Assembly (NCBI GenBank): GCA_028719225.1
Contig: JAQUKI010000003.1
Coordinates: 1-34,474, forward strand
Direction of reading: 5' to 3'
From: Fidelibacterota bacterium
Lineage (GTDB): Bacteria; Fidelibacterota; UBA2242
DNA: 34,474 nucleotides
Part shown: positions 10,196-16,016 of the stretch, one piece after another
Numbering within the stretch: position 1 is the stretch's first letter
Layout of the letters: each line of letters opens with the position of its first letter
The notes under the pieces: generated by a model
What the model saw: the letters and a program-made list of their open reading frames with translations, nothing else
The model's database searches: none
Told to the model about the DNA's origin: nothing
Made by a program: the position numbers and the translations under genes

Positions 10196-11164
10196 CTATT
10201 CGCCGACAATTTGATTCAACCGGACGACCGTTGCACCCCAACCGCCGCCCATTTCACCTGAAATCTGGTAAGAATCAACTTCGGACGGCATTTTCTCGAG
10301 CAGGCGATGAACGGTTTCCCGAAGCGCGCCCGTTCCTTTGCCGTGAATGATCCGCACCTGAAAAATGCCGCGCCTACGACATTCGGCAAGATAATCAGTC
10401 AACAATTCTTTCACTTCGTGCGGCTGAAAAGTATGCAGATCAAGTGTTCCGTCGATCGGAATTTCAACAGGATTCTCTTCATCCGAATTTACCAGATTAA
10501 ATGCGTTGCGTGCTTCAGTGACAAATTTTTCAACCAGCCGCCTTTCTTTATTGCCGTCGGAATCTTCGACGCCGGTGTGTGCATCGACTGCTGCCGGTCG
10601 AACGTCCACAATGGCTTTCCGGACATTTTTTACATTCAGACCGCCTGCAAGAATCACCGGTTTGGGCGAAAATTCAATCAATTGCCGGCTGATATTCCAA
10701 TCGTGAGTTTTTCCGGTTGCACCGCTGGCGCCGGTTTTCGGATCGAACGAATCGAGGATAAATCCATCGATCCGCGATGAGAAACGTTCGATTTCAGCAG
10801 TCAATTCAGTCAAACTCGTTTTGACGATCAGACTTTTAATAATACGAAGTTCCGGGCGCTGTTTTTTTAATTTGACGAGTTCCGGCATCGCTATCGATCC
10901 GTGAATCTGGACGATTGATACATCGAGGAAATCCATCAGACCGAAAATCTCATCGGCGTTATCTAAGTACGTGATCAATACAGATCGGTCGGCAATTCTC
11001 AAATTCCGAATGATTTCAGCAACAGTTTCGGGTGGTATATCTTCCCGATGAACGGCTAATTTTAACGGGAATCCAAGAAAATCTACCCCACAATCCAACA
11101 GCATTTTTGCTTCGGAAAGGCTCTTGATTCCGGCAATCTGAATGCTATTTTTCAGAAATGACAT
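10196..11164 (-). CDS. TrpF-like (phosphoribosylanthranilate isomerase fold) domain fused to a C-terminal Smr domain
   Basis: N-terminal ~220 aa aligns to TrpF (IQIAGIKSLSEAKMLLDCGVDFLGF; VQIHG; GFILDSFDP..GATGKTHDW; LAGGLNVKNVRKAIVDVRPAAVDAHTGVE). C-terminal Smr signature (LDLHTFQPHEVKELL...VRIIHGKGTGALRETVHRLL...GGWGATVVRL). ATG at 11164 preferred over the ORF-track start at 11197, which overlaps the upstream gene. Confidence 0.85.
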   Translation of the reverse strand: MSFLKNSIQIAGIKSLSEAKMLLDCGVDFLGFPLKLAVHREDIPPETVAEIIRNLRIADRSVLITYLDNADEIFGLMDFLDVSIVQIHGSIAMPELVKLKKQRPELRIIKSLIVKTSLTELTAEIERFSSRIDGFILDSFDPKTGASGATGKTHDWNISRQLIEFSPKPVILAGGLNVKNVRKAIVDVRPAAVDAHTGVEDSDGNKERRLVEKFVTEARNAFNLVNSDEENPVEIPIDGTLDLHTFQPHEVKELLTDYLAECRRRGIFQVRIIHGKGTGALRETVHRLLEKMPSEVDSYQISGEMGGGWGATVVRLNQIVGE

Positions 11165-11169
11165 GCCGT

Positions 11170-11898
11170 TCACTTCAAATTGATATAAAGTCCCCATAAG
11201 GCGTCCGGCTCGCTCGTGAATGTCATCCGCTCGTTTTTCGTCGGATGATTGAACGACAGCGAATAGGAATGAAGCGCGATGGCGGTACCATCATTAAATT
11301 TGGTCTTGGAGCCGTAACGCAGGTCGCCGAACACAGGAAAGCCGCGATGCGCGAATTGAACGCGTATCTGATGATGTCGTCCGGTGATGATTTCGACCTC
11401 GGCGAGTGAATAGCCGTTTTCGTAATTCAGTCGGCGAAAGCGCAATTCAGCCGGTTGTCCTTTGCCGCTTTTCACGATCCGGCTTGTCACGCCGTCGCGC
11501 AGAATGTCATCTGTCCATGTCCCGGAGTCCGGAATTCTTCCTTCAGCGAGAACGCGGTAAATTTTAACCACTTGCTTCGTCTGAAATTGGGCGGTCAGGC
11601 GGGCGGCGGCTTTGGAAGTTCTGGCAAAAACGACAACGCCTGAAGCCGGTCTATCGATGCGATGGACGAGCCCAAGAAAAACCTCGCCAGGTTTTTGATA
11701 TTTTTCCTTGATGTAATTCCGGGCAATTTCCAGTAATGTAATGTCGCCGGTTTGATCACCCTGCATCAGTATTCCGGCCGGTTTATCGACAACCAGTAGA
11801 TGATTGTCCTGATAGAGAATTTTTAACGGTAGGTTTGATTGATTTTTCACGACTGCTAATTTCCGGCAATTCGGTGGAAATGCCAAGTCATTCCGCAT
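11170..11898 (-). CDS. RluA-family (RluC/RluD-like) pseudouridine synthase
   Basis: 'ILYQDNHLLVVDKPAGI', 'GLVHRIDRPASGVVVFARTSKAA' with the catalytic Asp, 'TGRHHQIRVQFAHRGFPVFGDLRYG'. Confidence 0.9.
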   Translation of the reverse strand: MRNDLAFPPNCRKLAVVKNQSNLPLKILYQDNHLLVVDKPAGILMQGDQTGDITLLEIARNYIKEKYQKPGEVFLGLVHRIDRPASGVVVFARTSKAAARLTAQFQTKQVVKIYRVLAEGRIPDSGTWTDDILRDGVTSRIVKSGKGQPAELRFRRLNYENGYSLAEVEIITGRHHQIRVQFAHRGFPVFGDLRYGSKTKFNDGTAIALHSYSLSFNHPTKNERMTFTSEPDALWGLYINLK

Positions 11899-13468: not shown

Positions 13469-15838
13469 CTATTTAAGCAGTGTCATTTTGCGGATCGTCT
13501 GGTGACCGTTAATCTCCAGGCTGGCAAAATAAATGCCGGAAGGATAACGGGAAGAATTCCACGTAAAGGCAATCCGTCCGGCGGAAACCTTACGATTGAC
13601 GATCTGCTCAATCATATGCCCCTGCAAATCGACAATTGACAATTTGACGATAGATTCCTGCGGCAGATCGAATACGATATTCGTCGTTGGATTAAACGGA
13701 TTCGGATATATCGGGTAAAGTTTGAACTCAGTCGGTAAAATCTGGTCTCTCTTGGCTATGCCGACCTTAAAGCGGTCTGGGAACATACCTCCCAGCGTGC
13801 TGTCGGTACCCATGAAGAAATTCTTCATCATCATCAGGAAACTGGTCGGCGGATTATCGAACCAAGCCGATACGTTGACCCGCTCGCCATCAATCATTAT
13901 TGTTGAATCCGAAGTAGCGAAATCTTCAAACAAACTCCACGCAATGTCCGCCGATTTTTCCGACTTTTCCTGCATGTTTACGGCGTTCATATTAAAGTCG
14001 CCCTGATAAGGTTCCATGGCAATGAACAAATCTGTTACATTATCAAAGAACACTCCGAAACTTTTAAAGGAATCTTTCAACCAGACACCGGTTTCGTGGA
14101 ATTTCTCGATGCCGTAAGGAGTTACCGTTAAAAATTCCGGATTGGATTGTTCCAGAATGTTAATCAAATCCATCGGGCCTTCGACATTAGAAAAATCCAG
14201 ATATTCAGGATCAAGATCCAATATGAATATCTGATCGAGTTCATTGTACAGCCCGGTTAAAGCATCAGCCATCATTGACATGGCATTGCACGCCAGTTCA
14301 ATCATCTCAGTAGCGACCTTGACTTGCGATACGGTCAGATAATAAATGGAAAATTCACTGTTTTCACCCAGTATATAGGATCCCAGACCGTCGTCATAGG
14401 TTTTTACTAAAACCACGTAATTCGTCACAGCGCCGCTCTCGATGTACTGATCGACATGGAAGCGGATTACGTCGATCTGATCCTGCACATCGAAATCGCT
14501 CCATTCATAAGTAGCGAACAGACTGTCGATCCGTCCGCTCGAAATTAATTGCATGACTGACTCGATATTGCCGAAATATTCCTCATCGTTCAATAAATCG
14601 TAAAGCAGCGTCAGCGCCAAACCCAAATGTTCATCAGGAGTCAGGGTCGTAAGTGGTAGTGATTCTTTAAGGAGCAGAACCTGCTGGTAGGCGTGGAGCT
14701 TAGTTTCAAATTGCTCTTGGGTATCATTGGCATTCAGAATGATGTCGGAGGCGATCATGGCATACATATCGGAAGTCAATCCGTTGGGAAATGTGTTATA
14801 GAATGTGTAGGTCGTCTGTTCGCCGCTACGGTAATAATCCTTGTAAGCTCCCATGAGGCCATTGTGATGCGCCAGGCTTTCAATTATGACGCGCGGCCGG
14901 ATAACCTTATTTTCGGTTTCGAGGCCGATTGGATAGGTTTTCCCACCCAGTAGTGTGTCTATTTCGGCAATGCCTTTTTGGAGCGAATCCATCCAAGCTA
15001 GCTCGAATTCAAACGGGGCAAACGGCTGATTCCAAAGTAATACCTGAACACTATCGATCAGAGCGCTCAATGAATCGAGTCCTTGCCGGGCAACAATCAC
15101 TCCCGGATCGATGGCCGGGCTGTTATTGTTCAATGAATCGAGTATCTGAGTAAAACCGCTATCAAGAGTAACCGCCAGGTTTTCGCCCAATGTTGCAATC
15201 ATTTTTTGTCTGTCGAAAAACGTTCTGGAAAAGACGAACAGGGTGTCTTCATACTGAGAACCCATCACCTGGACGTTAAACTCGAAATCGGCGGTGCTAT
15301 CAAACACGGCTGCCCAGTGCTCGCCAAAAGCGTCCATCAGTGGTTCGGTCTTACCTCCGAAATAATCGACTGTCTCGTTCATATCGTCGGCCAACATACT
15401 GCTGTTAGTCAACCATTCATCGATTGAATCACGATAAGCCGGATAAGTACCAGATTCAAAGAATTCAGTCAGGTTCAGCACAAATGCGTTCGGATTGCCG
15501 GCATCGAATAGTGGAAAAATATCTGTGATGGTTTGATTAACGCCCAAGATAATATTGTCACTCATTTTTTCCATCAAATATTCAAGATCGTTGACCAGAG
15601 TGTCGCCATTAACATAAGTACGGGCGGCTTGTATAATGGCCAGTCCCATATGGGCTTTCATTGTCTGGGTATCATCGGCTCCCGGTAATAATTTAAGATA
15701 TTCCGTCTCCATACTGTCGAGATAAGCGTTATATCCCGACGTAATTTCATTCCGGAGAATGAGATCTGGAACTTGAGCAAAAAGGGTGGTCGCTAAAATC
15801 AGTGTGATTATTAAGGGCATTTTTAACAAATTATTCAT
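13469..15838 (-). CDS. Large secreted protein with T9SS-type C-terminal sorting domain, unknown function
   Basis: Signal peptide MNNLLKMPLIITLILATTLFAQ from ATG 15838 with SD ggaggag. C-terminus 'LYPIYPNPFNPTTNIVFDLPQESIVKLSIVDLQGHMIEQIVNRKVSAGRIAFTWNSSRYPSGIYFASLEINGHQTIRKMTLLK'. Confidence 0.85.
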   Translation of the reverse strand: MNNLLKMPLIITLILATTLFAQVPDLILRNEITSGYNAYLDSMETEYLKLLPGADDTQTMKAHMGLAIIQAARTYVNGDTLVNDLEYLMEKMSDNIILGVNQTITDIFPLFDAGNPNAFVLNLTEFFESGTYPAYRDSIDEWLTNSSMLADDMNETVDYFGGKTEPLMDAFGEHWAAVFDSTADFEFNVQVMGSQYEDTLFVFSRTFFDRQKMIATLGENLAVTLDSGFTQILDSLNNNSPAIDPGVIVARQGLDSLSALIDSVQVLLWNQPFAPFEFELAWMDSLQKGIAEIDTLLGGKTYPIGLETENKVIRPRVIIESLAHHNGLMGAYKDYYRSGEQTTYTFYNTFPNGLTSDMYAMIASDIILNANDTQEQFETKLHAYQQVLLLKESLPLTTLTPDEHLGLALTLLYDLLNDEEYFGNIESVMQLISSGRIDSLFATYEWSDFDVQDQIDVIRFHVDQYIESGAVTNYVVLVKTYDDGLGSYILGENSEFSIYYLTVSQVKVATEMIELACNAMSMMADALTGLYNELDQIFILDLDPEYLDFSNVEGPMDLINILEQSNPEFLTVTPYGIEKFHETGVWLKDSFKSFGVFFDNVTDLFIAMEPYQGDFNMNAVNMQEKSEKSADIAWSLFEDFATSDSTIMIDGERVNVSAWFDNPPTSFLMMMKNFFMGTDSTLGGMFPDRFKVGIAKRDQILPTEFKLYPIYPNPFNPTTNIVFDLPQESIVKLSIVDLQGHMIEQIVNRKVSAGRIAFTWNSSRYPSGIYFASLEINGHQTIRKMTLLK

Positions 15839-16016
15839 AACTCCTCCAATTAATACTAACATAAATTAACAACATTTGGATGAGAAGTTATAACCTATCT
15901 CACACAATTAAACATTTCTCTTCTCAAAGGCTGGCCTATCATCATGATCGTCTTCAGGCTGACTCATTACCAGAAGATTGTTGAGGCAGCGTTGGTTTTT
16001 TCAACCGGTTGCCATG

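Follow-up and report, generated by a model that had tools for sequence, protein, structure and literature searches.

A single open reading frame of an uncultured member of the Fidelibacterota (Marinimicrobia) joins a barrel resembling phosphoribosylanthranilate (PRA) isomerase, or TrpF, to a C-terminal Smr domain. The protein family that it represents is real and apparently undescribed. What the first-pass annotation of this DNA observed is confirmed and its interpretation is partly supported; residues, tree and genome content support well that the barrel is a distinct subfamily which has lost TrpF function. TrpF, a classic enzyme with a single function, is assigned by automatic annotation to any protein that matches the PF00697 profile; here a whole PF00697-matching clade cannot plausibly be TrpF, and the same doubt extends to its sister clades. 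The fusion also adds an architecture to the SMR proteins of bacteria, which now have a central place in the rescue of collided ribosomes. It is proposed, with confidence that is evenly balanced, that the protein belongs to a separate family derived from TrpF and has two domains, a barrel with a new ribose-phosphate-type ligand or substrate being joined to an SmrB-like domain acting on RNA or on the ribosome.

Structure and Integrity of the Fused Gene

The window, meaning the whole stretch of 34,474 nt that was analyzed, comes from contig JAQUKI010000003.1 of assembly GCA_028719225.1, a draft genome of 2.56 Mb in 288 contigs that is 89.8% complete. The first-pass annotation had read one continuous frame uniting a TrpF fold with an Smr domain and had proposed a check by profile. 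The frame is indeed unbroken (Table 1), and both profiles match far above their cut-offs: PRAI (PF00697) with an E-value of 4.3e-23 and 82.5 bits against 22.7, and Smr (PF01713) with 2.3e-20 and 73 bits against 25.7. These are the sole two Pfam domains of the frame. In the AlphaFold model (pLDDT 93.2, 37-sequence alignment), eight beta/alpha units are followed by a small alpha/beta domain made of strands and helices (residues 240-316). The best solved structures retrieved by Foldseek are PRA isomerases throughout (4aaj, 5lhf, and 1lbm; 20-28% identity over about 215 residues, E 7e-16, TM 0.86-0.90 on target), in agreement with the TrpF-like fold first assigned to the N-terminal domain. A mis-join or a frameshift as the source of the fusion is excluded, because intact fused orthologues are found in 12 other genomes, separately binned, at 49-80% identity. 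Copies cut by contig ends are present in G011 and G012.

Table 1. Coordinates of the fused gene, its domains and diagnostic residues, and the upstream gene in the window.
Feature	Position	Strand	Basis or detail
Fused gene, TrpF-like barrel + Smr	10196..11164	-	322 aa; ATG at 11164-11162; no internal stop
TrpF-like (beta/alpha)8 barrel	10517..11140	-	PF00697 match, residues 9-216; AlphaFold, Foldseek
Smr domain	10217..10444	-	PF01713 match, residues 241-316
Ala11, TrpF catalytic-Cys column	11132..11134	-	GCC codon, Q-I-A-G motif
Glu41, anthranilate-binding Arg column	11042..11044	-	Alignment column
Asp138, TrpF general-acid Asp, kept	10751..10753	-	Alignment
His154 in GATGKTHDW (canonical TrpF: Phe)	10703..10705	-	Alignment
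His196 after strand 8 (TrpF: Ser/Asn/Ala)	10577..10579	-	His in 33/33 of subfamily
DLH (DxH motif)	10433..10441	-	Residues 242-244; motif role, PMC10897456
HGKG (HGxG motif)	10334..10345	-	Residues 274-277; motif role, PMC10897456
RluA-family pseudouridine synthase, directly upstream	11170..11898	-	PF00849, E 3.8e-32

Catalytic Face of the Barrel

In TrpF, as in the T. maritima PRAI, a Cys serves as the general base, an Arg binds the anthranilate carboxylate, and an Asp is the general acid. These positions were compared between 33 subfamily members, some fused and some standalone, and 18 TrpF controls from the same phylum, with the columns checked against 1lbm. The catalytic-Cys column, that of Cys7 in the T. 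maritima enzyme, holds Ala in 33/33 members and Cys in 18/18 controls. The replacement of Cys by Ala in the Q-I-A-G motif, noticed at first pass and proposed there for structural alignment, is therefore borne out, and it is a family-wide trait rather than a private mutation. The anthranilate-Arg column contains Glu in 28 members, Pro in four, and Asp in one, and Arg in 0/33 as against 18/18 controls, although it adjoins a one-residue gap, which makes its register less secure than at the Cys column. What had been described as remaining does remain: the general-acid Asp is found in 33/33 members, as in every sequence of all clades compared, and the GGLN and VDxxTG phosphate-binding loops are kept.

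The subfamily has also gained residues of its own. The column of His154 is His in all 33 members and Phe in all 18 TrpF controls; like Tyr66 and His196, this residue is new and does not vary, and His88 and Lys110 are fixed here while variable in TrpF. Invariant positions make up 22 of the 78 on the catalytic face vs. 8 of the 137 elsewhere (Fisher p 1e-5). Because none of the six search peptides spans residues 11, 41, 138, or 196, the pattern at these sites is not due to the choice of sequences; one peptide spans GKTHDWNI, and His154 also holds in the sequences obtained from a whole-protein search. The NCBIfam TrpF equivalog models reach only about half of their cut-off (110 vs. 215 bits). With TrpF (PF00697; T. 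maritima 1lbm, P. furiosus 4aaj) the fused protein has in common the fold, the Asp, both loops, and a QxHG on strand 4. It differs by the replacement of the catalytic Cys by Ala, of the anthranilate Arg by Glu, and of the Phe of GxTGKTFDW by His, by its His196 and its C-terminal Smr domain, and in that many of its carriers lack the trp pathway.

Phylogeny and trp Gene Content

In a maximum-likelihood tree of 74 rows, the barrel subfamily occupies one side of one branch with a support of 100/100. The TrpFs of the same phylum split off (100/99), and two further clades, called Q-I-Y and K-V-C-C here after their N-terminal motifs, likewise stand apart from the subfamily. Within it, the fused sequences do not form one resolved clade, a topology compatible with one fusion event and with alternatives too.

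Gene content points the same way. No trp gene was seen near the fused gene, as first reported, and the window's genome (89.8% complete) yielded no IGPS/TrpC, no TrpA, and no second PRAI, so that the separate canonical trpF to be looked for was not found there. TrpC and TrpA were not found in G000, G001 (96% complete), G003, G004, G005 (98%, 30 contigs), G010, G012, G017, and G019. Each of these genomes carries the gene, as two ORFs in G004 and G010 (genus g4) and fused in the others. G008 was left out of this count, having a further TrpD-like match, and its missing TrpC and TrpA may reflect incompleteness. In G002, G006, G009, G011, G016, and G021, the genome that has the fused gene also encodes a TrpF, which lies next to TrpC or forms one protein with it. 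Since carriers without TrpA and TrpC and carriers with their own TrpF both exist, the gene is not linked to tryptophan synthesis, nor does it stand in for TrpF. The residues, the content of the genomes, and the tree thus lead to the rejection of a true TrpF, and the repurposed barrel suggested at first pass, separate in the tree and found both without the pathway and alongside true TrpF, holds up.

TrpD was considered as a sign of the pathway and dropped: in the genomes lacking TrpC and TrpA, the sole TrpD-like (PF02885) match lies in frames of about 430-500 aa, the size of a pyrimidine-nucleoside phosphorylase, and from their length these frames probably encode that enzyme.

The Smr Half

In SMR domains, DxH is a nuclease motif and HGxG an RNA-binding motif (PMC10897456). 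Both are present here, which is consistent with the nucleic-acid-binding or nuclease module predicted at first pass, and the first reads DLH in all fused members compared. MutS2-type Smr domains of the same genomes have DIR, DLR, or near variants (DxR) instead, and a separate frame of this type lies elsewhere in the window's genome. The DxR-like MutS2 of B. subtilis splits ribosomes and leaves mRNA uncut (PMC10897456). From these motifs, the genomes seem to carry one nuclease-type and one non-nuclease-type SMR protein, between which labor could be divided.

The SMR domain with DxH and HGxG is shared with SmrB and with the KOW-SMR proteins of Bacteroidetes (PF01713; PMC10897456), but the N-terminal partner is a TrpF-like barrel, in place of the hook of SmrB, the ATPase/KOW of MutS2, or the KOW of the Bacteroidetes proteins. 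PRAI and Smr being its sole matches, the frame lacks the MutS-type ATPase and KOW and is not a MutS2. The barrel-Smr fusion is none of the three SMR architectures described in PMC10897456. Its closest Smr relatives, about 44-63% identical, are standalone “LDLHTF” proteins of about 90-110 aa, which have no barrel. In the open-access literature, no paper was found that combines “phosphoribosylanthranilate isomerase” with “Smr domain,” nor with “pseudouridine kinase.” The folds and Smr motifs are known; what is apparently new is a barrel subfamily whose function is not the annotated one, placed in an undescribed architecture.

Distribution, Neighborhood, and Origin of the Fusion

Among 245 Fidelibacterota genomes, the fusion is restricted to families f1-f3 of one order, that of the window. 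Standalone barrels occur in f6, f11, f24, and f27, and standalone Smr proteins in f4, f10, and f15. A second survey sampled 396 genomes of the phylum to which an Ignavibacteria MAG belongs (barrel threshold E < 1e-40): the subfamily barrel was present in 21/396, every frame being of at most 254 aa, and standalone Smr in dozens, while the fusion was absent from all 396. Both halves of the fused gene are under purifying selection, with dN/dS values of 0.16 (barrel) and 0.17 (Smr) between G000 and G001, and of 0.21 and 0.35 between G002 and G008.

The upstream RluA gene (173 bits against TIGR00005, just under the cut-off) ends with a stop codon at 11170-11172, 5 nt ahead of the fused gene's ATG. 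Of the two arrangements first offered, overlapping or abutting, the second is therefore the right one. The link itself is conserved, RluA lying directly upstream in 11 of the 13 fused loci with upstream sequence; in G019 one gene comes between, and in G005 RluA is absent. This conserved neighbor fits an RNA or ribosome setting. By contrast glmS, also named at first pass, starts 40 nt downstream, but the adjacency is seen only within the genus, and a meaningful role for glmS as a neighbor is not supported. RluA was not found beside the standalone barrels, which have no constant neighbor (Obg/ProB, a TP_methylase gene, an endo/exonuclease-phosphatase gene, AbiE, and others). In the same gene run, at 13469-15862 on the minus strand, the window encodes a protein of 797 aa bearing a C-terminal sorting domain for type IX secretion.

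Other gene orders suggest a route by which the fusion may have arisen. An OPT transporter gene is followed by Smr without a barrel in G018 and G020, and by barrel and Smr as separate ORFs in G010 and, with a 23S_rRNA_IVP gene between them, in G004; the order is OPT-RluA-fusion in G017 and RluA-fusion at most fused loci. The G004 arrangement is spread over two contigs (L079:6655-7034 and L085:1-423) that overlap by 253 bp at 98%, and a short inverted repeat flanks the 23S_rRNA_IVP-family gene. In G011 (L084:7763-10199), the 3′ region of the fused gene occurs twice, in closely similar copies, on either side of two genes, one of the HTH-ImmA/IrrE type and the other matching DUF3368 weakly; this insert looks like a toxin-antitoxin-like module that duplicated the end of the gene.

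Proposed Function and Alternative Readings

With its retained Asp and phosphate loops, the barrel would hold a phosphorylated, probably ribose-type compound. Because Cys and Arg are both lost, this ligand should not be phosphoribosylanthranilate, which the barrel would not isomerize. It would probably convert a ribose-phosphate-type compound, using the Asp and dispensing with the Cys, and since standalone barrels exist without a partner Smr, it probably has an activity of its own. The Smr half would be directed, like SmrB, to RNA or stalled ribosomes, most likely binding RNA or ribosomes and perhaps acting as a nuclease, and the fusion would deliver the activity of the barrel to the site where Smr acts. 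We infer both the barrel substrate and the coupling of the two halves. In a narrower version, on which we would place little weight, the enzyme belongs to RNA or nucleotide metabolism and opens or rearranges a ribose-phosphate unit next to a ribosome-acting Smr nuclease; pseudouridine 5′-phosphate is a candidate because of the RluA neighbor and of the pseudouridine-kinase-like gene beside a Q-I-Y paralogue. If true, RNA cleavage and nucleotide chemistry would be linked here in a new way. The barrel ligand, the nuclease motif, and the RluA neighbor offer handles on the role of the barrel.

The loss of Cys is equally compatible with a barrel that only binds. A catalytically dead barrel could sense a phosphoribosyl metabolite and toggle the Smr nuclease, as the absence of Cys from all members, the persistence of the phosphate loops, and the retention of a one-chain fusion across three families would allow. 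Yet the invariant Asp and the new invariant polar residues of the catalytic face seemingly go beyond the needs of binding, and the barrel also occurs alone, with no Smr to control. An enzyme, at about an even chance, is thus favored over a pure sensor, which is possible but tentative. The coupling of the two halves is a separate matter, since the fusion may simply result from the two genes having been adjacent: OPT-Smr without a barrel (G018 and G020), separate barrel and Smr ORFs behind OPT (genus g4), and OPT-RluA-fusion all exist, so the genes were neighbors before or after fusing. Each half is found without the other and needs no partner, and the standalone barrels have no RluA beside them. 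Neighboring genes of unrelated roles could therefore share one chain without functional coupling, but the fact that three families have maintained this short-linker fusion (49-80% identity), both parts being under purifying selection, makes such an accident unlikely.

It is very improbable that the protein is a genuine, if unusual, PRA isomerase fused to Smr by chance. Although the window's genome has no other PF00697 protein and this one lies above the Pfam cut-off, both Cys and the anthranilate Arg are gone, the equivalog score is about half of what the cut-off demands, TrpA and TrpC are absent from the genome, and fusion-bearing relatives possess a separate TrpF with TrpC. An assembly error or frameshift joining two genes, which a draft in so many fragments might invite, has a negligible probability given the same intact fusion in the 12 separately binned genomes.

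Other TrpF-Like Clades

The Q-I-Y and K-V-C-C clades share with the subfamily the His of GxTGKTHDW and the same side of the tree; they differ from it by a Tyr or a Cys in the Cys column and by having no Smr domain. In the Q-I-Y clade (L053, L056-L059, L062-L065, and L112), Q-I-Y stands for the K-I-C of TrpF, with Tyr in the Cys column in 10/10. These genes adjoin PfkB kinases; the pseudouridine kinase model is the best match of the kinase at L062, which scores below its cut-off. In Lactobacillaceae they are also near genes for a NupC-type nucleoside transporter, a nucleoside hydrolase, and an iron ADH. The clade is probably a ribose-phosphate enzyme of nucleoside catabolism and not a TrpF. Pseudouridine glycosidase (PF04227) accompanies it in three of eight such genomes and was not found in G000, G005, G012, or G048, with no clear pattern.

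The K-V/I-C-C clade (L023-L027, L030, L031, L054, and L111) has the motifs MPSGPG and DLCSGVR; it keeps the Cys and has Gly in the anthranilate-Arg column, and in two genomes its gene is abutted by a YjbR-family gene. Finally, the TrpFs of Patescibacteria and Bathyarchaeota (L047-L052 and L055), located in trp clusters, have the His of GxTGKTHDW as the paralogues do and retain the Cys, and from these residues they may lie near the point at which the paralogues split.
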